Assembly (NCBI GenBank): GCA_964017155.1
Contig: OZ024867.1
Coordinates: 15,465,500-15,529,499 of the forward strand
Length of the DNA: 64,000 nt
Direction of reading: 5' to 3'
Source: Oasisia sp. SBJ-2009
Taxonomy: Eukaryota; Annelida; Polychaeta; Sabellida; Siboglinidae
Numbering within the stretch: the first letter of the stretch is position 1; every line of letters starts with the position of its first letter. A program made the translations under genes and the position numbers. The notes under the pieces are model-generated. The model worked only from the letters and a program-made list of their open reading frames with translations, did not search any database and was not told the origin of the DNA. Positions 1-64,000 of this stretch are shown one piece after another.

Positions 1-50
1 AGACTTGATGTATAAGACTTGGTGTGTAAGACTTGGTGTGTAAGACATGG

Positions 51-92
51 TGTGTTATACTTGATGTGTAAGATTTGATGTGTAAGACATGG
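51..92 (+). repeat. TTATAC cassette (3-unit marker), first of many
   Basis: Three units occur in fixed order: one with TTATACTTGA, one with A(A/T)GATTTGA, and one ending ACATGG. The cassette recurs every few hundred bases through the window, for example with TTATAC at 615, 1007, 1245, 1595, 2533, 3093, 5361, 8691, 9641, 17645, 35831 and 55797. It is the commonest cause of stop codons in the antisense frames, because TTA on the + strand is TAA on the - strand. No function is evident. Confidence 0.85.
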
Positions 93-358
93 TGTGTAAG
101 ACTTGGTGTGTAAGACATGGTGTGTAAGACTTGGTGTGTAAGACATGGTGTGTAAGACATGGTGTGTAAGACTTGGTGTGTAGCACATGGTGTGTAAGAC
201 TTGGTGTGTAAGACATGGTGTGTAGGACATGGTGTGTAGGACATGGTGTGTAAGACTTGGTGTGTAAAACTTGGTGTATAAGACATGGTATGTAAGACTT
301 GATGTGTAAGACCTGGTGTGTAAGACTTGGTGTGTAAGACATGGTGTGTAATACTTGA

Positions 359-414: not shown

Positions 415-2189
415 TGTGTAAGACATGGTGTGTAAGACTTGGTGTGTAAGACTTAGTGTGTAAGACATGGTGTTTAAGACATGGTGTGTAAGACATGGTG
501 TGTAAGACCTGGTGTGTAAGACATGGTGTGTAAGACTTGATGTGTAAGACTTGATGTGTAAGACTTGATGTGTATGACTTGGTGTGTAAGACTTGGTGTC
601 TAAGACATGGTGTGTTATACTTGATGTGTAAGATTTGATGTGTAAGACATGGTGTATAAGACATGGTGTGTAAGACTTGGTGTGTAAGACATGGTGTGTA
701 AGACTTGGTGTGTAAGACATTGTGTGTAAGACTTGGTGTGTAAGACATGGTGTGTAAGACTTGGTGTGTAAGACTCGGTGTGTAAGACATGGTGTGTAAG
801 ACATGGTGTGTAAGACATGGTGTGTAAGACCTGGTGTGTAAGACATGGTGTGTAAGACCTGGTGTGTAAGACTTGGTGTGTAAGACTTGATGTGTAAGAC
901 TAGATGTGTAAGACTTGGTGTGTAAGACTTGATGTGTAAGACTTGATGAGTAAGACTTGATATATAAGACTTGGTGTGTAAGACTTGGTGTGTAAGACAT
1001 GGTGTGTTATACTTGATGTGTAAGATTTGATGTGTAAGACATGGTGTGTAAGACTTGGTGTGTAAGACAAGGTGTGTAATACTTGATGTGTAAGACTTGA
1101 TGTGTACGACATGGTGTGTAAGCCCTGGTGTGTAAGACATGGTGTGTAAGACCTGGTGTGTAAGACATGGTGTGTAAGACTTGATGTGTAAGACTTGATG
1201 TGTATGACTTGGTGTGTAAGACTTGGTGTGTAAAACATGGTGTGTTATACTTGATGTGTATGATTTGATGTGTAAGACATGGTGTGTAAGACATGGTGTG
1301 TAAGACTTGGTGTGTAAGACATGGTGTGTAAGACTTGGTGTGTAAGACATTGTGTGTAAGACTTGGTGTGTAAGACATGGTGTGTAAGACTTGGTGTGTA
1401 AGACTCGGTGTGTAAGACATGGTGTGTAAGACATGGTGTGTAAGACCTGGTGTGTAAGACTTGGTGTGTAAGACTTGATGTGTAAGACTTGATGTGTAAG
1501 ACTTGGTGTGTAAGACTTGATGTGTAAGACTTGATGAGTAAGACTTTATGTATAAGACTTGGTGTGTAAGACTTGGTGTGTAAGACATGGTGTGTTATAC
1601 TTGATGTGTAAGATTTGATGTGTAAGACATGGTGTGTAAGACTTGGTGTGTAAGATATGGTGTGTAAGACTTGGTGTGTAAGACATGGTGTGTAAGACAT
1701 GGTGTGTAAGACTTGGTGTGTAACACATGGTGTGTAAGACTTGGTGTGTAAGACATGGTGTGTAGGACATGGTGTGTAGGACATGGCGTGTAAGACTTGG
1801 TGTGTAAAACTTGGTGTGTAAGACATGGTGTGTAAGACCTGGTGTGTAAGACATGGTGTGTAAGACCTGGTGTGTAAGACATGGTGTGTAAGACTTGATG
1901 TGTAAGACCTGGTGTGTAAGACTTTGTGTGTAAGACATGGTGTGTAACACTTGATGTGTAAGACTTGATGTGTACGACATGGTGTGTAAGCCCTGGTGTG
2001 TAAGACATGGTGTGTAAGACCTGGTGTGTAAGACATGGTGTGTAAGAATTGGTGTGTAAGACTTAGTGTGTAAGACATGGTGTTTAAGACATGGTGTGTA
2101 AGACATGGTGTGTAAGACTTGGTGTGAAAGACTTGATGTGTAAGACTTGATGTGTAAGATTTGGTGTGTAAGACTTGGTGTGTAAAACA

Positions 2190-2530
2190 TGGTGTGAAAG
2201 ACATGGTGTGTAAGACATGGTGTGTAAGACCTGGTGTGTAAGACATGGTGTGTAAGACCTGGTGTGTAAGACTTGGTGTGTAAGACTTGATGTGTAAGAC
2301 TTGATGAGTAAGACTTGATGTATAAGACTTGGTGTGTAAGACTTGGTGTGTAAGACATGGTGTGAAAGACATGGTGTGTAAGACATGGTGTGTAAGACCT
2401 GGTGTGTAAGACATGGTGTGTAAGACCTGGTGTGTAAGACTTGGTGTGTAAGACTTGATGTGTAAGACTTGATGAGTAAGACTTGATGTATAAGACTTGG
2501 TGTGTAAGACTTGGTGTGTAAGACATGGTG
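2190..2530 (+). repeat. 168-bp (12-unit) tandem duplication
   Basis: A TGTGAAAGACATGG variant at about 2196 and the 12 units around it are repeated 168 bp later at about 2364, each time ending in the GAGTAAG and TATAAG units. The equivalent place in the second 2,478-bp block (about 4.63-4.80 kb) has a single copy. The copy-2 super-repeat again has two, at about 37,412 and 37,580. This shows that the duplication predates the 35-kb duplication. Confidence 0.8.
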
Positions 2531-4839
2531 TGTTATACTTGATGTGTAAGATTTGATGTGTAAGACATGGTGTGTAAGACTTGGTGTGTAAGACATGGTG
2601 TGTAAGACTTGGTGTGTAAGACATGGTGTGTAAGACATGGTGTGTAAGACTTGGTGTGTAGCACATGGTGTGTAAGACTTGGTGTGTAAGACATGGTGTG
2701 TAGGACATGGTGTGTAGGACATGGTGTGTAAGACTTGGTGTGTAAAACTTGGTGTATAAGACATGGTATGTAAGACTTGATGTGTAAGACCTGGTGTGTA
2801 AGACTTGGTGTGTAAGACATGGTGTGTAATACTTGATGTGTACGACATGGTGTGTAAGCCCTGGTGTGTAAGACATGGTGTGTAAGACCTGGTGTGTAAG
2901 ACATGGTGTGTAAGACTTGGTGTGTAAGACTTAGTGTGTAAGACATGGTGTTTAAGACATGGTGTGTAAGACATGGTGTGTAAGACCTGGTGTGTAAGAC
3001 ATGGTGTGTAAGACTTGATGTGTAAGACTTGATGTGTAAGACTTGATGTGTATGACTTGGTGTGTAAGACTTGGTGTCTAAGACATGGTGTGTTATACTT
3101 GATGTGTAAGATTTGATGTGTAAGACATGGTGTATAAGACATGGTGTGTAAGACTTGGTGTGTAAGACATGGTGTGTAAGACTTGGTGTGTAAGACATTG
3201 TGTGTAAGACTTGGTGTGTAAGACATGGTGTGTAAGACTTGGTGTGTAAGACTCGGTGTGTAAGACATGGTGTGTAAGACATGGTGTGTAAGACATGGTG
3301 TGTAAGACCTGGTGTGTAAGACATGGTGTGTAAGACCTGGTGTGTAAGACTTGGTGTGTAAGACTTGATGTGTAAGACTAGATGTGTAAGACTTGGTGTG
3401 TAAGACTTGATGTGTAAGACTTGATGAGTAAGACTTGATATATAAGACTTGGTGTGTAAGACTTGGTGTGTAAGACATGGTGTGTTATACTTGATGTGTA
3501 AGATTTGATGTGTAAGACATGGTGTGTAAGACTTGGTGTGTAAGACAAGGTGTGTAATACTTGATGTGTAAGACTTGATGTGTACGACATGGTGTGTAAG
3601 CCCTGGTGTGTAAGACATGGTGTGTAAGACCTGGTGTGTAAGACATGGTGTGTAAGACTTGATGTGTAAGACTTGATGTGTATGACTTGGTGTGTAAGAC
3701 TTGGTGTGTAAGACATGGTGTGTTATACTTGATGTGTATGATTTGATGTGTAAGACATGGTGTGTAAGACATGGTGTGTAAGACTTGGTGTGTAAGACAT
3801 GGTGTGTAAGACTTGGTGTGTAATACATTGTGTGTAAGACTTGGTGTGTAAGACATGGTGTGTAAGACTTGGTGTGTAAGACTCGGTGTGTAAGACATGG
3901 TGTGTAAGACATGGTGTGTAAGACCTGGTGTGTAAGACTTGGTGTGTAAGACTTGATGTGTAAGACTTGATGTGTAAGACTTGGTGTGTAAGACTTGATG
4001 TGTAAGACTTGATGAGTAAGACTTTATGTATAAGACTTGGTGTGTAAGACTTGGTGTGTAAGACATGGTGTGTTATACTTGATGTGTAAGATTTGATGTG
4101 TAAGACATGGTGTGTAAGACTTGGTGTGTAAGACATGGTGTGTAAGACTTGGTGTGTAAGACATGGTGTGTAAGACATGGTGTGTAAGACTTGGTGTGTA
4201 ACACATGGTGTGTAAGACTTGGTGTGTAAGACTTGGTGTGTAAAACTTGGTGTGTAAGACATGGTGTGTAAGACCTGGTGTGTAAGACATGGTGTGTAAG
4301 ACCTGGTGTGTAAGACATGGTGTGTAAGACTTGATGTGTAAGACCTGGTGTGTAAGACTTTGTGTGTAAGACATGGTGTGTAACACTTGATGTGTAAGAC
4401 TTGATGTGTACGACATGGTGTGTAAGCCCTGGTGTGTAAGACATGGTGTGTAAGACCTGGTGTGTAAGACATGGTGTGTAAGAATTGGTGTGTAAGACTT
4501 AGTGTGTAAGACATGGTGTTTAAGACATGGTGTGTAAGACATGGTGTGTAAGACTTGGTGTGAAAGACTTGATGTGTAAGACTTGATGTGTAAGATTTGG
4601 TGTGTAAGACTTGGTGTGTAAAACATGGTGTGAAAGACATGGTGTGTAAGACATGGTGTGTAAGACCTGGTGTGTAAGACATGGTGTGTAAGACCTGGTG
4701 TGTAAGACTTGGTGTGTAAGACTTGATGTGTAAGACTTGATGAGTAAGACTTGATGTATAAGACTTGGTGTGTAAGACTTGGTGTGTAAGACATGGTGTG
4801 TTATACTTGATGTGTAAGATTTGATGTGTAAGACATGGT

Positions 4840-7570
4840 GTGTAAGACTTGGTGTGTAAGACATGGTGTGTAAGACTTGGTGTGTAAGACATGGTGTGTA
4901 AGACATGGTGTGTAAGACTTGGTGTGTAGCACATGGTGTGTAAGACTTGGTGTGTAAGACATGGTGTGTAGGACATGGTGTGTAGGACATGGTGTGTAAG
5001 ACTTGGTGTGTAAAACTTGGTGTATAAGACATGGTATGTAAGACTTGATGTGTAAGACCTGGTGTGTAAGACTTGGTGTGTAAGACATGGTGTGTAATAC
5101 TTGATGTGTACGACATGGTGTGTAAGCCCTGGTGTGTAAGACATGGTGTGTAAGACCTGGTGTGTAAGACATGGTGTGTAAGACTTGGTGTGTAAGACTT
5201 AGTGTGTAAGACATGGTGTTTAAGACATGGTGTGTAAGACATGGTGTGTAAGACCTGGTGTGTAAGACATGGTGTGTAAGACTTGATGTGTAAGACTTGA
5301 TGTGTAAGACTTGATGTGTATGACTTGGTGTGTAAGACTTGGTGTCTAAGACATGGTGTGTTATACTTGATGTGTAAGATTTGATGTGTAAGACATGGTG
5401 TATAAGACATGGTGTGTAAGACTTGGTGTGTAAGACATGGTGTGTAAGACTTGATGTGTAAGACATTGTGTGTAAGACTTGGTGTGTAAGACATGGTGTG
5501 TAAGACTTGGTGTGTAAGACTCGGTGTGTAAGACATGGTGTGTAAGACATGGTGTGTAAGACCTGGTGTGTAAGACTTGGTGTGTAAGACTTGATGTGTA
5601 AGACTTGATGAGTAAGACTTGATGTATAAGACTTGGTGTGTAAGACTTGGTGTGTAAGACATGGTGTGTTATACTTGATGTGTAAGATTTGATGTGTAAG
5701 ACATGGTGTGTAAGACTTGGTGTGTAAGACATGGTGTGTAAGACTTGGTGTGTAAGACATGGTGTGTAAGACATGGTGTGTAAGACTTGGTGTGTAGCAC
5801 ATGGTGTGTAAGACTTGGTGTGTAAGACATGGTGTGTAGGACATGGTGTGTAGGACATGGTGTGTAAGACTTGGTGTGTAAAACTTGGTGTATAAGACAT
5901 GGTATGTAAGACTTGATGTGTAAGACCTGGTGTGTAAGACTTGGTGTGTAAGACATGGTGTGTAATACTTGATGTGTAAGACTTGATGTGTACGACATGG
6001 TGTGTAAGCCCTGGTGTGTAAGACATGGTGTGTAAGACCTGGTGTGTAAGACATGGTGTGTAAGACTTGGTGTGTAAGAATTAGTGTGTAAGACATGGTG
6101 TTTAAGACATGGTGTGTAAGACATGGTGTGTAAGACTTGGTGTGAAAGACTTGATGTGTAAGACTTGATGTGTAAGACATGGTGTGTAAGACTTGGTGTG
6201 TAAGACTTGGTGTGTAAGACATGGTGTGTAAGACTTGGTGTGTAAGACATGGTGTGTAAGACATGGTGTGTAAGACTTGGTGTGTAGCACATGGTGTGTA
6301 AGACTTGGTGTGTAAGACATGGTGTGTAGGACATGGTGTGTAGGACATGGTGTGTAAGACTTGGTGTGTAAAACTTGGTGTATGAGACATGGTATGTAAG
6401 ACTTGATGTGTAAGACCTGGTGTGTAAGACTTGGTGTGTAAGACATGGTGTGTAATACTTGATGTGTACGACATGGTGTGTAAGCCCTGGTGTGTAAGAC
6501 ATGGTGTGTAAGACCTGGTGTGTAAGACATGGTGTGTAAGACTTGGTGTGTAAGACTTAGTGTGTAAGACATGGTGTTTAAGACATGGTGTGTAAGACAT
6601 GGTGTGTAAGACCTGGTGTGTAAGACATGGTGTGTAAGACTTGATGTGTAAGACTTGATGTGTAAGACTTGATGTGTATGACTTGGTGTGTAAGACTTGG
6701 TGTCTAAGACATGGTGTGTTATACTTGATGTGTAAGATTTGATGTGTAAGACATGGTGTGTAAGACATGGTGTGTAAGACTTGGTGTGTAAGACATGGTG
6801 TGTAAGACTTGATGTGTAAGACATTGTGTGTAAGACTTGGTGTGTAAGACATGGTGTGTAAGACTTGGTGTGTAAGACTCGGTGTGTAAGACATGGTGTG
6901 TAAGACATGGTGTGTAAGACCTGGTGTGTAAGACTTGGTGTGTAAGACTTGATGTGTAAGACTTGATGAGTAAGACTTGATGTATAAGACTTGGTGTGTA
7001 AGACTTGGTGTGTAAGACATGGTGTGTTATACTTGATGTGTAAGATTTGATGTGTAAGACATGGTGTGTAAGACTTGGTGTGTAAGACATGGTGTGTAAG
7101 ACTTGGTGTGTAAGACATGGTGTGTAAGACATGGTGTGTAAGACTTGGTGTGTAGCACATGGTGTGTAAGACTTGGTGTGTAAGACATGGTGTGTAGGAC
7201 ATGGTGTGTAGGACATGGTGTGTAAAACTTGGTGTGTAAAACTTGGTGTATAAGACATGGTATGTAAGACTTGATGTGTAAGACCTGGTGTGTAAGACTT
7301 GGTGTGTAAGACATGGTGTGTAATACTTGATGTGTAAGACTTGATGTGTACGACATGGTGTGTAAGCCCTGGTGTGTAAGACATGGTGTGTAAGACCTGG
7401 TGTGTAAGACATGGTGTGTAAGACTTGGTGTGTAAGACTTAGTGTGTAAGACATGGTGTTTAAGACATGGTGTGTAAGACGTGGTGTGTAAGACTTGGTG
7501 TGAAAGACTTGATGTGTAAGACTTGATGTGTAAGACATGGTGTGTAAGACTTGGTGTGTAAGACTTGGTG
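4840..7570 (+). repeat. Tandem pair of 1,358-bp (97-unit) blocks
   Basis: TAGCAC variants fall at about 4927, 5795, 6285 and 7153, an 868/490/868 spacing, so a 1,358-bp unit made of 62-unit and 35-unit sub-blocks occurs twice. TTATAC landmarks at 5361 and 5669 recur at 6719 and 7027. The equivalent pair in super-repeat copy 2 is at about 40,056-42,786. Confidence 0.8.
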
Positions 7571-8232
7571 TGAAAGACTTGATGTGTAAGACTTGATGTG
7601 TAAGACTTGATGTGTAAGACTTGGTGTGTAAGACTTGATGTGTAAGACTTGGTGTGAAACATTTGATATGTAAGACTTGATGTGTAAGACTTGGTGTGTA
7701 AGACATGGTGTGTAAGACTTGGTGTGTAAGACTCGGTGTGTAAGACATGGTGTGTAAGACTTGGTGTGTAAGTCTTAGTGTGTAAGACATGGTGTTTAAG
7801 ACATGGTGTGTAGGACATGGTGTGTAAGACTTGGTGTGTAAAACTTGGTGTGTAAGACATGGTGTGTAAGACCTGGTGTGTAAGACATGGTGTGTAAGAC
7901 CTGGTGTTTAAGACATGGTGTGTAAGACTTGATGTGTAAGACCTGGTGTGTAAGACTTGGTGTGTAAGACATGGTGTGTAATATTTGATGTGTCAGACTT
8001 GATGTGTACGACATGGTGTGTAAGCCCTGGTGTGTAAGACATGGTGTGTAAGACCTGGTGTGTAAGACATGGTGTGTAAGACTTGGTGTGTAAGACTTAG
8101 TGTGTAAGACATGGTGTTTAAGACATGGTGTGTAAGACATGGTGTGTAAGACTTGGTGTGAAAGACTTGATGTGAAAGACTTGATGTGTAAGATTTGGTG
8201 TGTAAGACTTGGTGTATAAGACATGGTGTGTA
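7571..8232 (+). repeat. Linking stretch of 14-bp units with GAAAC-ATTTGATATG landmark
   Basis: This ordinary array sequence lies between two block families. It carries a GAAACATTTGATATG landmark near 7667, an AAGTCTTAG variant near 7771, and TTTAAG units. No gene or other element is visible. The equivalent in copy 2 is about 42,787-43,448. Confidence 0.7.
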
Positions 8233-11200
8233 AGACTTGGTGTGAAACACTTAATGTGTAAGACTTGATGTGTAAGACTTGGTGTAAGACTTGGTGAGTA
8301 AGACTTGGTGTGTAAGACTTGGTGTGTAAGACAGGGTGTGAAAGACATGGTTTGTAAGACTTGGTGTGTAAGACATGGTGTGTAAGACTTGGTGTGTAAG
8401 ACATGGTGTGTAAGACTTGGTGTGTAAGACATGGTGTGTAAGACATGGTGTGTAAGACTTGGTGTGTAACACATGGTGTGTAAGACTTGGTGTGTAAGAC
8501 ATGGTGTGTAGGACATGGTGTGTAGGACATGGTGTGTAAGACTTGGTGTGTAAAACTTGGTGTGTAAGACATGGTGTGTAAGACCTGGTGTGTAAGACAT
8601 GGTGTGTAAGACTTGATGTGTAAGACTTGATGTGTAAGACTTGATGTGTATGACTTGGTGTGTAAGACTTGGTGTCTAAGACATGGTGTGTTATACTTGA
8701 TGTGTAAGATTTGATGTGTAAGACATGGTGTGTAAGACATGGTGTGTAAGACTTGGTGTGTAAGACATGGTGTGTAAGACTTGATGTGTAAGACATTGTG
8801 TGTAAGACTTGGTGTGTAAGACATGGTGTGTAAGACTTGGTGTGTAAGACTCGGTGTGTAAGACATGGTGTGTAAGACATGGTGTGTAAGACATTGTGTA
8901 AGACCTGGTGTGAAAGACATGGTGTGTAAGACCTGGTGTGTAAGACTTGGTGTGTAAGACTTGATGTGTAAGACTTGATGAGTAAGACTTGATGTATAAG
9001 ACTTGGTGTGTAAGACTTGGTGTGTAAGACATGGTGTGTTATACTTGATGTGTAAGATTTGATGTGTAAGACATGGTGTGTAAGACTTGGTGTGTGAGAC
9101 ATGGTGTGGAAGACTTAGTGTGTAAGACACGGTGTGTAAGACATGGTGTGTAAGACTTGGTGTGTAGCACATGGTGTGTAAGACTTGGTGTGTAAGACAT
9201 GGTGTGTAGGACATGGTGTGTAGGAAATGGTGTGTAAGACTTGGTGTGTAAAACTTGGTGTGTAAGACATGGTGTGTAAGACTTGATGTTTAAGACCTGG
9301 TGTGTAAGACTTGGTGTGTAAGACATGGTGTGTAATACTTGATGTGTAAGACTTGATGTGTACGACATGGTGTGTAAGCCCTGGTGTGTAAGACATGGTG
9401 TGTAAGACCTGGTGTGTAAGACATGGTGTGTAAGACATGGTGTGTAAGACTAGGTGTGTAAGACATGGTGTGTAAGACATGGTGTGTAAGACTTGGTGTG
9501 TAACTCATGGTGTGTAAGACTTGGTGTGTAAGACATGGTTTGTAGGACATGGTGTGTAGGACTTGATGTGTAAGACTTCGTGTGTAAGACTTGATGTGTA
9601 TGACTTGGTGTGTAAGACTTGGTGTGTAAGACATGGTGTGTTATACTTGATGTGTATGATTTGATGTGTAAGACATGGTGTTTAAGACATGGTGTGTAAG
9701 ACTTGATGTGTAAGACTTGGTGTGTAAGACTTGATGTGTATGACTTGGTGTGTAAGACATGGTGTGTAATACTTGATGTGTTAGACTTGATGTGTACGAC
9801 ATGGTGTGTAAGCCCTGGTGTGTAAGACATGGTGTGTAAGACCTGGTGTGTAAGACATGGTGTGTAAGACTTGGTGTGTAAGACTTAGTGTGTAAGACAT
9901 GGTGTTTAAGACATGGTGTGTAAGACATGGTGTGTAAGACTTGGTGTGAAAGACTTGATGTGTAAGACTTGATGTGTAAGACATGGTGTGTAAGACTTGG
10001 TGTGTAAGACTTGGTGTGAAAGACTTGATGTGTAAGACTTGATGTGTAAGATTTGATGTGTAAGACTTGGTGTGTAAGACTTGATGTGTAAGACTTGGTG
10101 TGAAACATTTGATATGTAAGACTTGATGTGTAAGACTTGGTGAGTAAGACATGGTGTGTAAGACTTGGTGTGTAAGACTCGGTGTGTAAGACATGGTGTG
10201 TAAGACTCGGTGTGTAAGACATGGTGTGTAAGACTTGGTGTGTAAGTCTTAGTGTGTAAGACATGGTGTTTAAGACATGGTGTGTAGGACATGGTGTGTA
10301 AGACTTGGTGTGTAAAACTTGGTGTGTAAGACATGGTGTGTAAGACCTGGTGTGTAAGACATGGTGTGTAAGACCTGGTGTGTAAGACATGGTGTGTAAG
10401 ACTTGATGTGTAAGACCTGGTGTGTAAGACTTGGTGTGTAAGACATGGTGTGTAATATTTGATGTGTCAGACTTGATGTGTACGACATGGTGTGTAAGCC
10501 CTGGTGTGTAAGACATGGTGTGTAAGACCTGGTGTTTAAGACATGGTGTGTAAGACATGGTGTGTAAGACTTGGTGTGAAAGACTTGATGTGTAAGACTT
10601 GATGTGTAAGACTTGGTGTGTAAGACTTGATGTGAAAGACTTGATGTGTAAGACTTGATGTGTAAGACTTGATGTGTAAGACTTGGTGTGTAAGACTTGA
10701 TGTGTAAGACTTGGTGTGAAACACTTAATGTGTAAGGCTTGATGTGTAAGACTTGGTGTAAGACTTGGTGAGTAAGACTTGGTGTGTAAGACTTGGTGTG
10801 TAAGACAGGGTGTGAAAGACATGGTTTGTAAGACTTGGTGTGTAAGACATGGTGTGTAAGACTTGGTGTGTAAGACATGGTGTGTAAGACTTGGTGTGTA
10901 AGACATGGTGTGTAAGACATGGTGTGTAAGACTTGGTGTGTAACACATGGTGTGTAAGACTTGGTGTGTAAGACATGGTGTGTAGGACATGGTGTGTAGG
11001 ACATCGTGTGTAAGACTTGGTGTGTAAAACTTGGTGTGTAAGACATGGTGTGTAAGACCTGGTGTGTAAGACATGGTGTGTAAGACTTGATGTGTAAGAC
11101 TTGATGTGTAAGACTTGATGTGTATGACTTGGTGTGTAAGACTTGGTGTCTAAGACATGGTGTGTTATACTTGATGTGTAAGATTTGATGTGTAAGACAT

Positions 11201-13180
11201 GGTGTGTAAGACATGGTGTGTAAGACTTGGTGTGTAAGACATGGTGTGTAAGACTTGATGTGTAAGACATTGTGTGTAAGACTTGGTGTGTAAGACATGG
11301 TGTGTAAGACTTGGTGTGTAAGACTCGGTGTGTAAGACATGGTGTGTAAGACATGGTGTGTAAGACATTGTGTAAGACATGGTGTGAAAGACATGGTGTG
11401 TAAGACCTGGTGTGTAAGACTTGGTGTGTAAGACTTGATGTGTAAGACTTGATGAGTAAGACTTGATGTATAAGACTTGGTGTGTAAGACTTGGTGTGTA
11501 AGACATGGTGTGTTATACTTGATGTGTAATATTTGATGTGTAAGACATGGTGTGTAAGACTTGGTGTGTAAGACATGGTGTGGAAGACTTGGTGTGTAAG
11601 ACACGGTGTGTAAGACATGGTGTGTAAGACTTGGTGTGTAGCACATGGTGTGTAAGACTTGGTGTGTAAGACATGGTGTGTAGGACATGGTGTGTAGGAC
11701 ATGGTGTGTAAGACTTGGTGTGTAAAACTTGGTGTGTAAGACATGGTGTGTAAGACTTGATGTTTAAGACCTGGTGTGTAAGACTTGGTGTGTAAGACAT
11801 GGTGTGTAATACTTGATGTGTAAGACTTGATGTGTACGACATGGTGTGTAAGCCCTGGTGTGTAAGACATGGTGTGTAAGACCTGGTGTGTAAGACATGG
11901 TGTGTAAGACATGGTGTGTAAGACTAGGTGTGTAAGACATGGTGTGTAAGACATGGTGTGTAAGACTTGGTGTGTAACTCATGGTGTGTAAGACTTGGTG
12001 TGTAAGACATGGTTTGTAGGACATGGTGTGTAGGACTTGATGTGTAAGACTTGGTGTGTAAGACTTGATGTGCATGACTTGGTGTGTAAGACTTGGTGTG
12101 TAAGACATGGTGTGTTATACTTGATGTGTATGATTTGATGTGTAAGACATGGTGTGTAAGACATGGTGTGTAAGACTTGATGTGTAAGACTTGGTGTGTA
12201 AGACTTGATGTGTATGACTTGGTGTGTAAGACATGGTGTGTAATACTTGATGTGTAAGACTTGATGTGTACGACATGGTGTGTAAGCCCTGGTGTGTAAG
12301 ACATGGTGTGTAAGACCTGGTGTGTAAGACATGGTGTGTAAGACTTGGTGTGTAAGACTTAGTGTGTAAGACATGGTGTTTAAGACATGGTGTGTAAGAC
12401 ATGGTGTGTAAGACTTGGTGTGAAAGACTTGATGTGTAAGACTTGATGTGTAAGACATGGTGTGTAAGACTTGGTGTGTAAGACTTGGTGTGAAAGACTT
12501 GATGTGTAAGACTTGATGTGTAAGATTTGATGTGTAAGACTTGGTGTGTAAGACTTGATGTGTAAGACTTGGTGTGAAACATTTGATATGTAAGACTTGA
12601 TGTGTAAGACTTGGTGTGTAAGACATGGTGTGTAAGACTTGGTGTGTAAGACTCGGTGTGTAAGACATGGTGTGTAAGACTTGGTGTGTAAGTCTTAGTG
12701 TGTAAGACATGGTGTTTAAGACATGGTGTGTAGGACATGGTGTGTAAGACTTGGTGTGTAAAACTTGGTGTGTAAGACATGGTGTGTAAGACCTGGTGTG
12801 TAAGACATGGTGTGTAAGACCTGGTGTGTAAGACATGGTGTGTAAGACTTGATGTGTAAGACCTGGTGTGCAAGACTTGGTGTGTAAGACATGGTGTGTA
12901 ATACTTGATGTGTCAGACTTGATGTGTACGACATGGTGTGTAAGCCCTGGTGTGTAAGACATGGTGTGTAAGACCTGGTGTGTAAGACATGGTGTGTAAG
13001 ACTTGGTGTGTAAGACTTAGTGTGTAAGACATGGTGTTTAAGACATGGTGTGAAAGACTTGATGTGAAAGACTTGATGTGTAAGACTTGATGTGTAAGAC
13101 TTGATGTGTAAGACTTGGTGTGTAAGACTTGATGTGTATGACTTGGTGTGTAAGACTTGGTGTGTAGGACATGGTGTGTT
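8233..13180 (+). repeat. Tandem pair of 2,474-bp blocks (177 units, two of them 12 bp)
   Basis: The rare GAAACACTTAATG variant at about 8247 recurs at 10721, and the ACAGGG variant at 8331 recurs at 10805, both 2,474 bp apart. Each block contains two shortened 12-bp units. The count is therefore again 177 units, the same as the 2,478-bp blocks at the left end. The copies differ by point changes and by a 28-bp insertion near 10,200. The second copy has TAAGGCTT where the first has TAAGACTT. Confidence 0.82.
8283..8294 (+). repeat. Shortened 12-bp unit (TGTAAGACTTGG)
   Basis: One TG dinucleotide is missing from the 14-bp unit, which shifts the phase of the array by 2 bp. Similar short units follow ACATTG or ACTTGG near 8897, 10,759 and 11,371 in copy 1. 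In copy 2 they lie near 43,513, 44,127, 45,989, 46,839, 48,701 and 49,313. They are confined to this block family. The copy-2 family has six because the 2,712-bp block that contains two of them is doubled there. Confidence 0.8.
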
Positions 13181-17326: not shown

Positions 17327-17539
17327 ACATGGTGTGTTATACTTGATGTGTATGATTTGATGTGTAAGACATGGTGTGTAAGACATGGTGTGTAAGACTT
17401 GGTGTGTAAGACATGGTGTGTAAGACTTGGTGTGTAAGACATTGTGTGTAAGACTTGGTGTGTAAGACATGGTGTGTAAGACTTGGTGTGTAAGACTCGG
17501 TGTGTAAGACATGGTGTGTAAGACATGGTGTGTAAGACC

Positions 17540-43460: not shown

Positions 43461-43560
43461 TAAGACTTGGTGTGAAACACTTAATGTGTAAGACTTGATG
43501 TGTAAGACTTGGTGTAAGACTTGGTGAGTAAGACTTGGTGTGTAAGACTTGGTGTGTAAG

Positions 43561-51894: not shown

Positions 51895-54800
51895 TCATGG
51901 TGTGTAAGACTTGGTGTGTAAGACATGGTTTGTAGGACATGGTGTGTAGGACTTGATGTGTAAGACTTGGTGTGTAAGACTTGATGTGTATGACTTGGTG
52001 TGTAAGACTTGGTGTGTAAGACATGGTGTGTTATACTTGACGTGTATGATTTGATGTGTAAGACATGGTGTGTAAGACATGGTGTGTAAGACTTGATGTG
52101 TAAGACTTGGTGTGTAAGACTTGATGTGTATGACTTGGTGTGTAAGACTTGGTGTGTAGGACATGGTGTGTTATACTTGATGTGTATGATTTGATGTGTA
52201 AGACATGGTATGTAAGACATGGTGTGTAAGACATTGTGTGTAAGACTTGGTGTGTAAGACATGGTGTGTAAGACTTGGTGTGTAAGACTCGGTGTGTAAG
52301 ACATGGTGTGTAAGACATAGTGTGTAAGACATGGTGTGTAAGACCTGGTGTGTAAGACATGGTGTGTAAGACCTGGTGTGTAAGACTTGGTGTGTAAGAC
52401 TTGATGTGTAAGACTAGATGTGTAAGACTTGGTGTGTAAGATTTGATGTGTAAGACTTGATGAGTAAGACTTGATATATAAGACTTGGTGTGTAAGACTT
52501 GGTGTGTAAGACATGGTGTGTTATACTTGATGTGTAAGATTTGATGTGTAAGACATGGTGTGTAAGACTTGGTGTGTAAGACATGGTGTGTAAGACTTGG
52601 TGTGTAAGACATGGTGTGTAAGACATGGTGTTTAAGACTTGGTGTGTAACATATGGTGTGTAAGACTTGGTGTGTAAGACATGGTGTGTAGGACATGGTG
52701 TGTAGGACATGGCGTGTAAGACTTGGTGTGTAAAACTTGGTGTGTAAGACATGGTGTGTAAGACATGGTGTGTAAGACTTGGTGTGTAACTCATGGTGTG
52801 TAAGACTTGGTGTGTAAGACATGGTTTGTAGGACATGGTGTGTAGGACTTGATGTGTAAGACTTGGTGTGTAAGACTTGATGTGTATGACTTGGTGTGTA
52901 AGACTTGGTGTGTAAGACATGGTGTGTTATACTTGATGTGTATGATTTGATGTGTAAGACATGGTGTGTAAGACATGGTGTGTAAGACTTGATGTGTAAG
53001 ACTTGGTGTGTAAGACTTGATGTGTATGACTTGGTGTGTAAGACTTGGTGTGTAGGACATGGTGTGTTATACTTGATGTGTATGATTTGATGTGTAAGAC
53101 ATGGTATGTAAGACATGGTGTGTAAGACTTGGTGTGTAAGACATGGTGTGTAAGACTTGGTGTGTAAGACATTGTGTGTAAGACTTGGTGTGTAAGACAT
53201 GGTGTGTAAGACTTGGTGTGTAAGACTCGGTGTGTAAGACATGGTGTGTAAGACATAGTGTGTAAGACATGGTGTGTAAGACCTGGTCTGTAAGACATGG
53301 TGTGTAAGACCTGGTGTGTAAGACTTGGTGTGTAAGACTTGATGTGTAAGACTAGATGTGTAAGACTTGGTGTGTAAGACTTGATGTGTAAGACTTGATG
53401 AGTAAGACTTGATATATAAGACTTGGTGTGTAAGACTTGGTGTGTAAGACATGGTGTGTTATACTTGATGTGTAAGATTTGATGTGTAAGACATGGTGTG
53501 TAAGACTTGGTGTGTAAGACAAGGTGTGTAATACTTGATGTGTAAGACTTGATGTGTACGACATGGTGTGTAAGCCCTGGTGTGTAAGACATGGTGTGTA
53601 AGACCTGGTGTGTAAGACATGGTGTGTAAGACATGGTGTGTAAGACTAGGTGTGTAAGACATGGTGTGTAAGACATGGTGTGTAAGACTTGGTGTGTAAC
53701 TCATGGTGTGTAAGACTTGGTGTGTAAGACATGGTTTGTAGGACATGGTGTGTAGGACTTGATGTGTAAGACTTGGTGTGTAAGACTTGATGTGTATGAC
53801 TTGGTGTGTAAGACTTGGTGTGTAAGACATGGTGTGTTATACTTCACGTGTATGATTTGATGTGTAAGACATGGTGTGTAAGACATGGTGTGTAAGACTT
53901 GATGTGTAAGACTTGGTGTGTAAGACTTGATGTGTATGACTTGGTGTGTAAGACTTGGTGTGTAGGACATGGTGTGTTATACTTGATGTGTATGATTTGA
54001 TGTGTAAGACATGGTATGTAAGACATGGTGTGTAAGACATTGTGTGTAAGACTTGGTGTGTAAGACATGGTGTGTAAGACTTGGTGTGTAAGACTCGGTG
54101 TGTAAGACATGGTGTGTAAGACATAGTGTGTAAGACATGGTGTGTAAGACCTGGTGTGTAAGACATGGTGTGTAAGACCTGGTGTGTAAGACTTGGTGTG
54201 TAAGACTTGATGTATAAGACTAGATGTGTAAGACTTGGTGTGTAAGATTTGATGTGTAAGACTTGATGAGTAAGACTTGATATATAAGACTTGGTGTGTA
54301 AGACTTGGTGTGTAAGACATGGTGTGTTATACTTGATGTGTAAGATTTGATGTGTAAGACATGGTGTGTAAGACTTGGTGTGTAAGACATGGTGTGTAAG
54401 ACTTGGTGTGTAAGACATGGTGTGTAAGACTTGGTGTGTAACATATGGTGTGTAAGACTTGGTGTGTAAGACATGGTGTGTAGGACATGGTGTGTAGGAC
54501 ATGGCGTGTAAGACTTGGTGTGTAAAACTTGGTGTGTAAGACATGGTGTGTAAGACATGGTGTGTAAGACTTGGTGTGTAACTCATGGTGTGTAAGACTT
54601 GGTGTGTAAGACATGGTTTGTAGGACATGGTGTGTAGGACTTGATGTGTAAGACTTGGTGTGTAAGACTTGATGTGTATGACTTGGTGTGTAAGACTTGG
54701 TGTGTAAGACATGGTGTGTTATACTTGATGTGTATGATTTGATGTGTAAGACATGGTGTGTAAGACATGGTGTGTAAGACTTGATGTGTAAGACTTGGTG

Positions 54801-55478
54801 TGTAAGACTTGATGTGTATGACTTGGTGTGTAAGACTTGGTGTGTAGGACATGGTGTGTTATACTTGATGTGTATGATTTGATGTGTAAGACATGGTATG
54901 TAAGACATGGTGTGTAAGACTTGGTGTGTAAGACATGGTGTGTAAGACTTGGTGTGTAAGACATTGTGTGTAAGACTTGGTGTGTAAGACATGGTGTGTA
55001 AGACTTGGTGTGTAAGACTCGGTGTGTAAGACATGGTGTGTAAGACATAGTGTGTAAGACATGGTGTGTAAGACCTGGTCTGTAAGACATGGTGTGTAAG
55101 ACCTGGTGTGTAAGACTTGGTGTGTAAGACTTGATGTGTAAGACTAGATGTGTAAGACTTGGTGTGTAAGACTTGATGTGTAAGACTTGATGAGTAAGAC
55201 TTGATATATAAGACTTGGTGTGTAAGACTTGGTGTGTAAGACATGGTGTGTTATACTTGATGTGTAAGATTTGATGTGTAAGACATGGTGTGTAAGACTT
55301 GGTGTGTAAGACAAGGTGTGTAATACTTGATGTGTAAGACTTGATGTGTACGACATGGTGTGTAAGCCCTGGTGTGTAAGACATGGTGTGTAAGACCTGG
55401 TGTGTAAGACATGGTGTGTAAGACTTGATGTGTAAGACTTGATGTGTATGACTTGGTGTGTAAGACTTGGTGTGTAAG
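51895..55478 (+). repeat. Four tandem ~896-bp blocks (copy 1 has two)
   Basis: TAACTC landmarks fall at about 51895, 52791, 53701 and 54583, giving spacings of 896, 910 and 882 bp (64, 65 and 63 units). The extra two blocks equal 1,792 bp, which is the observed step in offset from 36,360 to 38,152. Copies 1 and 3 share a GTGTGATTTG-to-ACGTGTATG change near 52,040 and 53,847. This suggests the pair 1+2 was duplicated together as 3+4. Confidence 0.83.
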
Positions 55479-58400
55479 ACATGGTGTGTTATACTTGATG
55501 TGTATGATTTGATGTGTAAGACATGGTGTGTAAGACATGGTGTGTAAGACTTGGTGTGTAAGACATGGTGTGTAAGACTTGGTGTGTAAGACATTGTGTG
55601 TAAGACTTGGTGTGTAAGACATGGTGTGTAAGACTTGGTGTGTAAGACTCGGTGTGTAAGACATGGTGTGTAAGACATGGTGTGTAAGACCTGGTGTGTA
55701 AGACTTGGTGTGTAAGACTTGATGTGTAAGACTTGATGTGTAAGACTTGGTGTGTAAGACTTGATGTGTAAGACTTGGTGTGTAAGACATGGTGTGTTAT
55801 ACTTGATGTGTAAGATTTGATGTGTAAGACATGGTGTGTAAGACTTGGTGTGTAAGACATGGTGTGTAAGACTTGGTGTGTAAGACATGGTGTGTAAGAC
55901 ATGGTGTGTAAGACTTGGTGTGTAACACATGGTGTGTAAGACTAGGTGTGTAAGACATGGTGTGTAGGACATGGTGTGTAGGACATGGCGTGTAAGACTT
56001 GGTGTGTAAAACTTGGTGTGTAAGACATGGTGTGTAAGACCTGGTGTGTAAGACATGGTGTGTAAGACCTGGTGTGTAAGACATGGTGTGTAAGACTTGA
56101 TGTGTCAGACCTGGTGTGTAAGACTTTGTGTGTAAGACATGGTGTGTAAGACTTGATGTGTAAGACTTGATGTGTACGACATGGTGTGTAAGCCCTGGTG
56201 TGTAAGACATGGTGTGTAAGACCTGGTGTGTAAGACATGGTGTGTAAGAATTGGTGTGTAAGACTTAGTGTGTAAGACATGGTGTTTAAGACATGGTGTG
56301 TAAGACATGGTGTGTAAGACTTGGTGTGAAAGACTTGATGTGTAAGACTTGATGTGTAAGATTTGGTGTGTAAGACTTGGTGTGTAAAACATGGTGTGAA
56401 AGACATGTTGTGTAAGACTTGGTGTGAAAGACTTGATGTGTAAGACTTGATGTGTAAGACTTGGTGTGTAAGACTTGGTGTATAAGACATGGTGTGTAAG
56501 ACTTGGTGTTTAAGACTTGGTGTGAAAGACTTGATGTGTAAGACTTGATGTGTAAGACTTGATGTGTAAGACTTGGTGTGTAAGACTTGATGTGTAAGAC
56601 TTGGTGTGAAACACTTGATGTGTAAGACTTGATGTGTAAGACTTAATGTGTAAGACTTGGTGAGTAAGACTTGGTGTGTAAGACTTGGTGTGTAAGACAG
56701 GGTGTGAAAGACATGGTGTGTAAGACTTGGTGTGTAAGACATGGTGTGTAAGACTTGGTGTGTAAGACATGGTGTGTAAGACTTGGTGTGTAAGACATTG
56801 TGTGTAAGACATGGTGTGTAAGACTTGGTGTGTAACACATGGTGTGTAAGACTTGGTGTGTAAGACATGGTGTGTAGGACATGGTGTGTAGGACATGGTG
56901 TGTAAGACTTGGTGTGTCAAACTTGGTGTGTAAGACATGGTGTGTAAGACCTGGTGTGTAAGACATGGTGTGTAAGACTTGATGTGTAAGACTTGATGTG
57001 TAAGACTTGATGTGTATGACTTGGTGTGTAAGACTTGGTGTGTAAGACATGGTGTGTAAGACTTGGTGCGTAAGACTCGGTGTGTAAGACATGGTGTGTA
57101 AGACATGGTGTGTAAGACATGGTGTGTAAGACCTGGTGTGTAAGACTTGGTGTATAAGACATGGTGTGTAAGACTTGGTGTGTAAGACATGGTGTGTAAG
57201 ACATGGTGTGTAAGACTTGGTGTGTAACACATGGTGTGTAAGACTTGGTGTGTAAGACATGGTGTGTAGGACATGGTGTGTAAAACTTGATGTGTAAGAC
57301 TTGGTGTGTAAGACTTGGTGTGTAACACTTGATGTGTAAGACTTGATGTGTACGACATGGTGTGTAAGCCCTGGTGTGTAAGACATGGTGTGTAAGACCT
57401 GGTGTGTAAGACATGGTGTGTAAGAATTGGTGTGTAAGACTTAGTGTATAAGACATGGTGTCTAAGACATGGTGTGTAAGACATGGTGTGTAAGACTTGG
57501 TGTGAAAGACTTGATGTGTAAGACTTGATGTGTAAGATTTGGTGTGTAAGACTTGGTGTGTAAAACATGGTGTGTAAGACATGGTGTGTAAGACTTGGTG
57601 TGAAAGACTTGATGTGTAAGACTTGATGTGTAAGACTTGGTGTGTAAGACTTGGTGTATAAGACATGGTGTGTAAGACTTGGTGTTTAAGACTTGGTGTG
57701 AAAGACTTGATGTGTAAGACTTGATGTGTAAGACTTGATGTGTAAGACTTGGTGTGTAAGACTTGATGTGTAAGACTTGGTGTGAAACACTTGATGTGTA
57801 AGACTTGATGTGTAAGACTTAATGTGTAAGACTTGGTGTGTAAGACTTGGTGTGTAAGACAGGGTGTGAAAGACAGGGTGTGAAAGACATGGTGTGTAAG
57901 ACTTGGTGTGTAAGACTTGGTGTGTAAGACATGGTGTGTAAGACATGGTGTGTAAGACTTGGTGTGTAAGACATGGTGTGTAAGACATGGTGTGTAAGAC
58001 TTGGTGTGTAACACATGGTGTGTAAGACTTGGTGTGTAAGACATGGTGTGTAGGACATGGTGTGTAGGACATGGTGTGTAAGACTTGGTGTGTCAAACTT
58101 GGTGTGTAAGACATGGTGTGTAAGACCTGGTGTGTAAGACATGGTGTGTAAGACTTGATGTGTAAGACTTGATGTGTAAGACTTGATGTGTATGACTTGG
58201 TGTGTAAGACTTTGTGTGTAAGACATGGTGTGTAAGACTTGGTGTGTATGACTCGGTGTGTAAGACATGGTGTGTAAGACATGGTGTGTAAGACATGGTG
58301 TGTAAGACCTGGTGTGTAAGACATGGTGTGTAAGACCTGGTGTGTAAGACTTGGTGTGTAAGACTTGATGTGTAAGACTTGATGTGTAAGACTTGGTGTA

Positions 58401-60276
58401 TAAGACTTGATGTGTAAGACTTGATGTGTAAGACTTGATGTGTATGACTTGGTGTGTAAGACTTGGTGTGTAAGACATGGTGTGTAAGACTTGGTGTGTA
58501 AGACTCGGTGTGTAAGACATGGTGTGTAAGACATGGTGTGTAAGACATGGTGTGTAAGCCCTGGTGTCTAAGACATGGTGTGTAAGACCTGGTGTGTAAG
58601 ACATGGTGTGTAAGACATGGTGTGTAAGACTAGGTGTGTAAGACATGGTGTGTAAGACATGGTGTGTAAGACTTGGTGTGTAACTCATGGTGTGTAAGAC
58701 TTGGTGTGTAAGACATGTTGTGTAGGACATGGTGTGTAGGACTTGATTTGTAAGACTTGGTGTGTAAGACTTGATGTGTATGACTTGGTGTGTAAGACTT
58801 GGTGTGTAAGACATGGTGTGTTATACTTGATGTGTATGATTTGATGTGTAAGACATGGTGTGTAAGACATGGTGTGTAAGACTTGATGTGTAAGACTTGG
58901 TGTGTAAGACTTGATGTGTATGACTTGGTGTGTAAGACTTGGTGTGTAAGACATGGTGTGTTATACTTGATGTGTATGATTTGATGTGTAAGACATGGTA
59001 TGTAAGACATGGTGTGTAAGACTTGGTGTGTAAGACATGGTGTGTAATACTTGGTGTGTAAGACATTGTGTGTAAGACTTGGTGTGTAAGACATGGTGTG
59101 TAAGACTTGGTGTGTAAGACTCGGTGTGTAAGACATGGTGTGTAAGACATGGTGTGTAAGACATGGTGTGTAAGACCTGGTGTGTAAGACATGGTGTGTA
59201 AGACCTGGTGTGTAAGACTTGGTGTGTAAGACTTGATGTGTAAGACTTGATGTGTAAGACTTGGTGTGTAAGACTTGATGTGTAAGACTTGATGAGTAAG
59301 ACTTGATATATAAGACTTGGTGTGTAAGACTTGGTGTGTAAGACATGGTGTGTTATACTTGATGTGTAAGATTTGATGTGTAAGACATGGTGTGTAAGAC
59401 TTGGTGTGTAAGACAAGGTGTGTAATACTTGATGTGTAAGACTTGATGTGTACGACATGGTGTGTAAGCCCTGGTGTGTAAGACATGGTGTGTAAGACCT
59501 GGTGTGTAAGACATGGTGTGTATGACTTGATGTGTAAGACTTGATGTGTATGACTTGGTGTGTAAGACTTGGTGTGTAAGACATGGTGTGTTATACTTGA
59601 TGTGTAAGACTTGATGTGTAAGACTTGGTGTGTAAGACTTGGTGTGTTATACTTGATGTGTATGATTTGATGTGTAAGACATGGTATGTAAGACATGGTG
59701 TGTAAGACTTGGTGTGTAAGACATGGTGTGTAAGACTTGGTGTGTAAGACATTGTGTGTAAGACTTGGTGTGTAAGACATGGTGTGTAAGACTTGGTGTG
59801 TAAGACTCGGTGTGTAAGACATGGTGTGTAAGACATGGTGTGTAAGACATGGTGTGTAAGACCTGGTGTGTAAGACATGGTGTGTAAGACCTGGTGTGTA
59901 AGACTTGGTGTGTAAGACTTGATGTGTAAGACTAGATGTGTAAGACTTGGTGTGTAAGACTTGATGTGTAAGACTTGATGAGTAAGACTTGATATATAAG
60001 ACTTGGTGTGTAAGACTTGGTGTGTAAGACATGGTGTGTTATACTTGATGTGTAAGATTTGATGTGTAAGACATGGTGTGTAAGACTTGGTGTGTAAGAC
60101 AAGGTGTGTAATACTTGATGTGTAAGACTTGATGTGTACGACATGGTGTGTAAGCCCTGGTGTGTAAGACATGGTGTGTAAGACCTGGTGTGTAAGACAT
60201 GGTGTGTAAGACTTGATGTGTAAGACTTGATGTGTATGACTTGGTGTGTAAGACTTGGTGTGTAAGACATGGTGTG
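55479..60276 (+). repeat. Copy-2 equivalent of the 4.5-kb block, single copy
   Basis: This is colinear with 17.3-22.0 kb at offset 38,152, and from about 59.9 kb with 26.3 kb at offset 33,602. Small differences from copy 1 include ACATGTTG near 56,405, GTGCGTAAG near 57,067, and AAGACATGG near 57,159 where copy 1 has AAGAAATGG. Only 14-bp units are visible. Confidence 0.82.
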
Positions 60277-63200
60277 TTATACTTGATGTGTATGATTTGA
60301 TGTGTAAGACATGGTGTGTAAGACATGGTGTGTAAGACTTGGTGTGTAAGACATGGTGTGTAAGACTTGGTGTGTAAGACATTGTGTGTAAGACTTGGTG
60401 TGTAAGACATGGTGTGTAAGACTTGGTGTGTAAGACTCGGTGTGTAAGACATGGTGTGTAAGACATGGTGTGTAAGACCTGGTGTGTAAGACTTGGTGTG
60501 TAAGACTTGATGTGTAAGACTTGATGTGTAAGACTTGGTGTGTAAGACTTGATGTGTAAGACTTGATGAGTAAGACTTGATGTATAAGACTTGGTGTGTA
60601 AGACTTGGTGTGTAAGACATGGTGTGTTATACTTGATGTGTAAGATTTGATGTGTAAGACATGGTGTGTAAGACTTGGTGTGTAAGACATGGTGTGTAAG
60701 ACTTGGTGTGTAAGACATGGTGTGTAAGACATGGTGTGTAAGACTTGGTGTGTAACACATGGTGTGTAAGACTTGGTGTGTAAGACATGGTGTGTAGGAC
60801 ATGGTGTGTAGGACATGGCGTGTAAGACTTGGTGTGTAAAACTTGGTGTGTAAGACATGGTGTGTAAGACCTGGTGTGTAAGACATGGTGTGTAAGACCT
60901 GGTGTGTAAGACATGGTGTGTAAGACTTGATGTGTAAGACCTGGTGTGTAAGACTTTGTGTGTAAGACATGGTGTGTAACACTTGATGTGTAAGACTTGA
61001 TGTGTACGACATGGTGTGTAAGCCCTGGTGTGTAAGACATGGTGTGTAGGACATGGTGTGTAGGACATGGTGTGTAAGACTTGGTGTGTCAAACTTGGTG
61101 TGTAAGACATGGTGTGTAAGACCTGGTGTGTAAGACATGGTGTGTAAGACTTGATGTGTAAGACTTGATGTGTAAGACTTGATGTGTATGACTTGGTGTG
61201 TAAGACTTTGTGTGTAAGACATGGTGTGTAAGACTTGGTGTGTAAGACATGGTGTGTAACACTTGATGTGTAAGACTTGATGTGTACGACATGGTGTGTA
61301 AGCCCTGGTGTGTAAGACATGGTGTGTAGGACATGGTGTGTAGGACATGGTGTGTAAGACTTGGTGTGTCAAACTTGGTGTGTAAGACATGGTGTGTAAG
61401 ACCTGGTGTGTAAGACATGGTGTGTAAGACTTGATGTGTAAGACTTGATGTGTAAGACTTGATGTGTAAGACTTGGTGTGTAAGACTTGATGTGTAAGAC
61501 TTGGTGTGAAACACTTGATGTGTAAGACTTGATGTGTAAGACTTAATGTGTAAGACTTGGTGAGTAAGACTTGGTGTGTAAGACTTGGTGTGTAAGACAG
61601 GGTGTGAAAGACATGGTGTGTAAGACTTGGTGTGTAAGACATGGTGTGTAAGACTTGGTGTGTAAGACATGGTGTGTAAGACTTGGTGTGTAAGACATGG
61701 TGTGTAAGACATGGTGTGTAAGACTTGGTGTGTAACACATGGTGTGTAAGACTTGGTGTGTAAGACATGGTGTGTAGGACATGGTGTGTAGGACATGGTG
61801 TGTAAGAATTGGTGTGTCAAACTTGGTGTGTAAGACATGGTGTGTAAGACCTGGTGTGTAAGACATGGTGTGTAAGACTTGATGTGTAAGACTTGATGTG
61901 TAAGACTTGATGTGTATGACTTGGTGTGTAAGACTTTGTGTGTAAGACATGGTGTGTAAGACTTGGTGTGTATGACTCGGTGTGTAAGACATGGTGTGTA
62001 AGACATGGTGTGTAAGACATGGTGTGTAAGACCTGGTGTGTAAGACATGGTGTGTAAGACCTGGTGTGTAAGACTTGGTGTGTAAGACTTGATGTGTAAG
62101 ACTTGATGTGTAAGACTTGGTGTATAAGACTTGATGTGTAAGACTTGATGTGTAAGACTTGATGTGTATGACTTGGTGTGTAAGACTTGGTGTGTAAGAC
62201 ATGGTGTGTAAGACTTGGTGTGTAAGACTCGGTGTGTAAGACATGGTGTGTAAGACATGGTGTGTAAGACATGGTGTGTAAGCCCTGGTGTGTAAGACAT
62301 GGTGTGTAAGACCTGGTGTGTAAGACATGGTGTGTAAGACATGGTGTGTAAGACTAGGTGTGTAAGACATGGTGTGTAAGACATGGTGTGTAAGACTTGG
62401 TGTGTAACTCATGGTGTGTAAGACTTGGTGTGTAAGACATGTTGTGTAGGACATGGTGTGTAGGACTTGATTTGTAAGACTTGGTGTGTAAGACTTGATG
62501 TGTATGACTTGGTGTGTAAGACTTGGTGTGTAAGACATGGTGTGTTATGCTTGATGTGTATGATTTGATGTGTAAGACATGGTATGTAAGACATGGTGTG
62601 TAAGACTTGATGTGTAAGACTTGGTGTGTAAGACTTGATGTGTATGACTTGGTGTGTAAGACTTGGTGTGTAAGACATGGTGTGTTATACTTGATGTGTA
62701 TGATTTGATGTGTAAGACATGGTATGTAAGACATGGTGTGTAAGACTTGGTGTGTAAGACATGGTGTGTAATACTTGGTGTGTAAGACATTGTGTGTAAG
62801 ACTTGGTGTGTAAGACATGGTGTGTAAGACTTGGTGTGTAAGACTCGGTGTGTAAGACATGGTGTGTAAGACATGGTGTGTAAGACATGGTGTGTAAGAC
62901 CTGGTGTGTAAGACATGGTGTGTAAGACCTGGTGTGTAAGACTTGGTGTGTAAGACTTGATGTGTAAGACTTGATGTGTAAGACTTGGTGTGTAAGACTT
63001 GATGTGTAAGACTTGATGAGTAAGACTTGATATATAAGACTTGGTGTGTAAGACTTGGTGTGTAAGACATGGTGTGTTATACTTGATGTGTAAGATTTGA
63101 TGTGTAAGACATGGTGTGTAAGACTTGGTGTGTAAGACAAGGTGTGTAATACTTGATGTGTAAGACTTGATGTGTACGACATGGTGTGTAAGCCCTGGTG

Positions 63201-64000
63201 TGTAAGACATGGTGTGTAAGACCTGGTGTGTAAGACATGGTGTGTATGACTTGATGTGTAAGACTTGATGTGTATGACTTGGTGTGTAAGACTTGGTGTG
63301 TAAGACATGGTGTGTTATACTTGATGTGTAAGACTTGATGTGTAAGACTTGGTGTGTAAGACTTGGTGTGTTATACTTGATGTGTATGATTTGATGTGTA
63401 AGACATGGTATGTAAGACATGGTGTGTAAGACTTGGTGTGTAAGACATGGTGTGTAAGACTTGGTGTGTAAGACATTGTGTGTAAGACTTGGTGTGTAAG
63501 ACATGGTGTGTAAGACTTGGTGTGTAAGACTCGGTGTGTAAGACATGGTGTGTAAGACATGGTGTGTAAGACATGGTGTGTAAGACCTGGTGTGTAAGAC
63601 ATGGTGTGTAAGACCTGGTGTGTAAGACATGGTGTGTAAGACCTGGTGTGTAAGACATGGTGTGTAAGACATGGTGTGTAAGACTAGGTGTGTAAGACAT
63701 GGTGTGTAAGACATGGTGTGTAAGACTTGGTGTGTAACTCATGGTGTGTAAGACTTGGTGTGTAAGACATGTTTTGTAGGACATGGTGTGTAGGACTTGA
63801 TTTGTAAGACTTGGTGTGTAAGACTTGATGTGTATGACTTGGTGTGTAAGACTTGGTGTGTAAGACATGGTGTGTTATACTTGATATGTATGATTTGATG
63901 TGTAAGACATGGTGTGTAAGACATGGTGTGTAAGACTTGATGTGTAAGACTTGGTGTGTAAGACTTGATGTGTATGACTTGGTGTGTAAGACTTGGTGTG
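60277..64000 (+). repeat. Copy-2 equivalent of the 2.9-kb and 1.33-kb blocks
   Basis: The first part matches 26.7 kb at offset 33,602 then 33,658. After the missing 448-bp and 2,912-bp duplications, the rest matches 30.8-33.7 kb at offset 30,298. The 1,330-bp pair begins at about 62,354 and its second copy is cut by the window end. Private variants include AAGAATTGG near 61,807 and GTATG near 62,584. Confidence 0.82.

Follow-up and report, generated by a model that had tools for sequence, protein, structure and literature searches.

A single young 35-kb tandem duplication in a megabase 14-bp satellite array of Oasisia sp. SBJ-2009

Rare sequence variants in a 14-bp satellite of the siboglinid annelid Oasisia sp. 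SBJ-2009 recur in the same order about 35 kb apart, and two long collinear copies underlie this recurrence. A preliminary description of the locus took the spacing for a higher-order period some 2,500 units long; the question is whether the array is organized at that scale or records a single event. The 35-kb spacing reflects a single young tandem duplication, in an array growing by in-register duplications of many sizes. To the whole of the best explanation, in which one ~35.2-kb head-to-tail duplication in a megabase satellite arose through short homology as part of ordinary array turnover, we would give about three chances in four.

The array and its two long copies

The stretch analyzed ("the window": 64,000 bp, C14:15465500-15529499, C14 being contig OZ024867.1) contains no N and consists of a single 14-bp tandem array of unit TGTGTAAGAC[A/T]TGG, for which TRF returns one row with period 14. 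Segmentation yields 4,572 units of 104 types (4,562 of 14 bp and 10 of 12 bp). The 12-bp units, of two kinds, serve as rare landmarks (8283, 8883, 10757, 11357, 43513, 44113, 45987, 46825, 48699, and 49299), and all 37 genome occurrences of one such landmark lie on C14. Strand asymmetry is strong across the window (GC skew 0.61), and CpG is depleted (170 observed vs ~1,708 expected).

In C14 13.47-17.53 Mb, 16 of 20 sampled stretches (5-10 kb each) belong to this satellite and have its strand orientation. Finer sampling places the edges at 14.770-14.820 Mb and 16.730-16.830 Mb, giving an array that by sampling spans ~1.95-2.06 Mb (satellite from 14.78 to 16.73 Mb) of this 41.9-Mb contig, in an assembly of 764.1 Mb and 33 contigs. 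The array is interrupted at ~15.346-15.386 Mb by an insert of 30-40 kb of non-satellite sequence (L007, L053-L057). Four 5-kb satellite samples to the left of the insert have 88.5-91% of their 14-mers in common with the window, and for twelve longer samples on its right the figure is 92-98%; sharing in 300-bp samples is more variable (77-99% left of the insert). About 0.7-0.8 Mb past the right edge of the array, a minus-strand ORF (L020:2418-2930) matches Pfam DUF4559 (E 1.4e-22), the one family found among the 8 of 36 listed flank ORFs that were compared with Pfam.

Genome-wide, a generic array 42-mer has 3,541 forward and 119 reverse matches. Among the matches listed, the first is at C14 14,783,501, which, assuming contig order, hints that C1-C13 are without it. 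The karyotype is probably n = 14, judging by the sizes of the contigs looked at (C1, C2, C5, C10, and C13 at 45-71 Mb, C14 at 41.9 Mb, C15-C20 at 11-30 kb). The first 9,000 bp of C33 (15,483 bp), the part read, carry on one strand what we take, from recognizing the translations, to be ND4L, ND4, a gap fitting rRNAs, ND1, ND3, ND2, COX1, and COX2, a gene order typical of annelids. By the samples, the satellite forms a megabase tandem array inside a chromosome, as a centromeric satellite would, with one non-satellite interruption. A (peri)centromeric nature is probable, and the array, with its very short monomer, is a candidate for the centromere of this 42-Mb chromosome.

The principal features of the window are as follows.

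1-64000, + strand: 14-bp satellite array (single TRF row of period 14; unit segmentation)
1634-36869, + strand: copy 1 of the 35.2-kb tandem duplication (diagonals at offsets 35216, 35230, 37942, 36360, 38152, 33602, and 30298)
36850-64000, + strand: copy 2, extending 3.2 kb outside the window to 67167 (C14 15532666; 30353-36869 matches 60651-67167 at 99.92%)
36850-36869, + strand: duplication junction, 20 bp common to the copy 1 start (1634), the junction, and the copy 2 end (67148)

In the assembly sequence, on which this geometry rests, the copies are adjacent, collinear, and in the same orientation, and the end of copy 1 is the start of copy 2. A chain with the fewest events, built from gap-free high-identity diagonals, pairs 1634-8243 with 36850-43459 (6,610 bp, 99.89%), 8231-11045 with 43461-46275, 8317-14122 with 46259-52064 (99.95%), 14106-17272 with 50466-53632, 16252-21934 with 54404-60086 (99.91%), 24681-26778 with 58283-60380, and 30353-36869 with 60651-67167. 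It contains 19 mismatches in 25,510 aligned bp (99.93% identity), about one base difference per 1.3 kb. Unit-level alignment of the copies shows 24 differing units out of 1,912, of which 7 lie in 14687-16240/52853-54406, a stretch that the chain pairs differently in arriving at its 19.

Random in-register stretches of 280 bp are 86.4% identical on average, and 6 of 1,988 random pairs reach at least 95%; the copies are far more alike than this background, as copies of a higher-order repeat (HOR) would be. The contrast upholds two points of the preliminary description, that the copies diverged recently and that units inside one copy vary widely. Its count of three residue differences between 4801-7020 and 40017-42236 agrees with the unit alignment, where three base differences (in the units at 6015, 6071, and 6379) allow at most three. 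A chance origin of the match was rejected: exact repetition in the window extends over as many as 275 units, whereas 50 shuffles of the units never gave more than 9 and 50 first-order Markov simulations never more than 13.

The six offsets at which diagonals had been predicted (35216, 37942, 36360, 38152, 33602, and 30298) are all present. With exact 100-bp words the six top offsets are 35216, 37942, 38152, 30298, 35230, and 36360, with 33602 in 13th place. Shortening the words to 60 bp puts 37942, 35216, and 38152 first, in that order, with the short offsets 2474 and 2712 level with 35230, 30298, and 36360. Equally strong matches at unrelated offsets would have told against a special status for 35 kb; many of the 225 segments in the window scan do lie at such offsets (2912, 3724, 4522, 8358, and others), but none exceeds 2,647 bp, and it is the ~35-kb family that supplies the five longest diagonals in the window.

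Length changes, junctions, and mechanism

Along the chain the offset between copies steps by +14, +2712, -1582, +1792, -4550, and -3304 bp, all whole units. These six length changes, from 14 bp to 4.6 kb, leave copy 2 longer in three cases and copy 1 in three.

43457-43470, + strand: one additional 14-bp unit in copy 2 (unit alignment)
46261-48972, + strand: 2,712 bp extra in copy 2 (tandem duplication, 43547-46275 with 46259-48987, 99.89%)
14106-15687, + strand: 1,582 bp extra in copy 1 (tandem duplication, 12524-14122 with 14106-15704, 0 mismatches)
52612-54403, + strand: 1,792 bp extra in copy 2, or lost from copy 1 (diagonals, chain)
21935-26484, + strand: ~4,550 bp extra in copy 1 (17540-19697 with 22062-24219, 99.95%; 20131-21934 with 24681-26484, 99.94%)
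26779-30352, + strand: 3,304 bp net extra in copy 1 (overlaps a 2,912-bp duplication, 26615-29261 with 29527-32173, 99.77%)

The 2,712-bp and 1,582-bp changes read clearly as tandem duplications. Those of 1,792, 4,550, and 3,304 bp may each be either a duplication in one copy or a loss from the other, two histories that leave the same trace, and in the last case 26779-30352 faces 270 bp of copy 2 (60381-60650) outside the aligned chain. Copy 2 was later lengthened at its end, to 70555, by a 3,248-bp duplication (64078-67307 with 67326-70555, 0 mismatches in 3,230 bp). Single-unit changes (one on the chain, two in the unit alignment) are so few that block exchange, rather than one-unit slippage, seems dominant. 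By way of illustration, a divergence of 0.0745% would correspond to an age of ~37,000-370,000 years at an assumed rate of 1e-9 to 1e-8 per site per year, which is uncalibrated for this animal.

Junctions offer a view of how such events arise. Requiring clean adjacency and at least 99.5% identity gave 13 rows; after exclusion of a multi-copy run whose overlap is 621 bp and of two twins carried along inside larger duplications, and with the 35-kb event added, 11 remain. Their overlaps are 13, 17, 17, 20, 21, 22, 24, 24, 30, 39, and 44 bp (median 22), whereas the run at in-register points chosen at random has a median of 11 bp (Mann-Whitney p = 1.5e-4). The parental breakpoint flanks of the 35-kb event are 79-91% identical, close to the 86.4% background. 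Other events depart from this pattern: the 3,248-bp duplication has an 18-bp gap and no overlap, a clean junction is absent from the 1792, 4522, 2912, and 4770 events, and an older 2,474-bp event, with a 14-bp overlap, falls below the identity cut-off at 98.8%. For these 11 rule-selected events, the sequence would favor exchange at about one to three matching units, without a long near-identical tract, and sharing of 13-44 bp suggests short-homology repair or replication restart.

The strongest competing account is classical unequal homologous crossing-over as described by Smith, in which stretches of extensive homology paired out of register to produce the duplication. In its favor, the events keep the register of the unit, repeats suitable for pairing abound in the array, and the 1792, 4522, 2912, and 4770 changes lie amid long similar blocks without clean short junctions. 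At the 35-kb breakpoints, however, the paired sequences are only as alike as random in-register array, and the clean junctions have 13-44 bp in common and no more. We regard this origin as possible but rather unlikely, and prefer, only moderately, break-induced or microhomology-mediated restart or illegitimate sister exchange. Some of the length changes could still be losses through ordinary homologous recombination between local repeats.

Under the short-homology reading that we prefer, a segment of ~35.2 kb (1634-36849) in the megabase 14-bp array would have undergone one head-to-tail duplication. The trigger may have been a break or a stalled fork; exchange between sister chromatids or by replication restart would follow, with one to three matching units (here 20 bp) serving as primer. 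The route could be break-induced or microhomology-mediated, or an illegitimate unequal exchange, as proposed for centromeric satellites. The copies would then have drifted apart by in-register blocks of 14 bp to 4.6 kb and by base changes. A bolder version would hold that the satellite is a megabase array private to its chromosome, and that its whole hierarchy (0.36-35 kb) stems from in-register duplications via one to three matching units, through replication restart without a size limit and not through homologous crossing-over. In that full form the proposal is speculative, and we would wager against it at about three to one; if it were true, the array would be a legible natural record of the growth of a young satellite.

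Assembly, copy number, and reading frames

Two alleles of one 35-kb segment, one copy per haplotype, might have been placed in tandem by the assembler. A base difference of ~0.07% with a few block indels would suit two haplotypes equally well, but the copies join through only 20 bp in common, with 79-88% identity immediately to the left, whereas an assembly-graph error normally requires kilobases of near-identity. The window is also without N, and a second, differently sized duplication lies nearby. We consider such an artefact improbable.

Much less probable still is a true HOR with a 35-kb period and three or more copies. Two collinear copies do exist, but a search for further ones, which the preliminary description had recommended on the parent contig, found none in 104 kb of contiguous sequence, at 16 sampled loci, or with two 42-mers genome-wide. 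In 37 kb of flanking sequence, the best match of either copy lies downstream (covered to 94000) and measures 2,351 bp at 99.40% (57291-59641 with 79802-82152). In the 10 kb upstream it is 1,904 bp at 99.8% (-149 to 1754), overlapping the start of copy 1 and matching inside both copies. When 16 satellite loci (14.97-16.53 Mb, from -500 to +1,069 kb) were compared with the window, trying the 60 commonest offsets per locus, short pieces were recovered, the best being 1,532 bp at 99.4%. The two copy-specific 42-mers each occur exactly twice in 764 Mb, both times here, by exact matching that a copy at least 1% diverged in unsampled array could escape.

Elsewhere in the array the local offsets differ (2,618 bp at L003; 1,526 bp at L018; 2,954 and 1,848 bp at L012; 5,132 bp at L009 and L010; 4,770 bp at L043). 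Just upstream of the window, L009 and L010 match over 9,144 bp at 99.98% with an offset of 19,144 bp, a separate large duplication. Upstream landmark spacings of 2922, 2588, 2908, and 2224 recur as a 10,642-bp block, beginning at 15412247, 15431391, and 15442033 (region C14 15412247-15452675). The array, as far as it was looked at, is pieced together from duplications of many different lengths.

In an HOR the block would recur several times in succession with a constant period; two copies were found here, the flanks do not continue the pattern, and the landmarks appear exactly twice. The proposed period of about 2,500 units gives way to one duplication, so that setting its length against regular satellite higher-order periods is not apt. 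Definitions vary: TRASH, as described in PMC10199239, counts any pair of equal-length blocks of similar monomers as an HOR, and by that looser pairwise usage the gap-free segments of the duplication would count as HOR pairs.

The last alternative, with next to no probability in our estimate, is that the duplicated segment has a function under selection, such as coding: minus-strand open frames do reach 761 codons and the frame 40017-42236 matches Pfam SHLD1_C (E 6.8e-7, 29.9 bits vs a cut-off of 27), but the reverse complement of the consensus is stop-free in every frame, which makes long frames automatic and on which ground coding was rejected as their explanation, and no single stretch within the match passes alone. 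The SHLD1_C match would be an effect of repetitive composition; of the two frames scanned in the window, the other (44871-47156) had no Pfam match. The duplication is probably without function of its own.

Relation to known arrays

Very short monomers have received uneven attention. A broad comparative survey of satellites excluded monomers below 50 bp, according to PMC4053949, so arrays like this one would not appear in it. No title on the present satellite was among the matches listed for the mollusc and annelid satellite literature, which is not proof of absence. Human DYZ1 has a 3.6-kb unit (PMC4022460) of pentanucleotides (as given in a reference title in PMC4022460), and simple-sequence arrays with kilobase blocks are described in PMC2588610. 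These resemble the 14-bp array in their very short monomers and kilobase-scale repeated blocks; DYZ1, however, has a regular period, whereas the 35-kb block is a single duplication.

Nested HORs of alpha satellite share with the present array duplications of different ages, whole-unit changes, and local variants. The alpha satellite monomer is 171 bp vs 14 bp here, and the 35-kb block has two copies and no long regular run. Unequal exchange and break-induced replication are reviewed as models for such nested HORs in PMC8997354, which also reports that complete centromere sequences put the unequal-exchange model in question and that further evaluation is warranted. A short, variable monomer makes duplication breakpoints legible, so this array may help to choose between unequal crossing-over and break-induced or microhomology-mediated replication, and could thereby inform our view of the engine of satellite growth.

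In maize centromere 10, an adjacent segmental duplication of 22.7 kb provides the closest precedent, with a 5-nt junction match and an age of ~121,000 years by its authors' estimate (PMC4806543); adjacent duplications there create higher-order CentC repeats (PMC4806543). As reported, both cases are single recent head-to-tail duplications of tens of kilobases inside a centromere (here a candidate one), with a brief identical stretch at both ends and the junction, and with smaller adjacent duplications alongside. The maize event involved a retrotransposon segment, a 5-nt match, and a centromere defined by CENH3, whereas the present one involves pure 14-bp satellite, a 20-bp match, and a candidate centromere. 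The 35-kb duplication is a fresh example of a known phenomenon, an ordinary product of array turnover.
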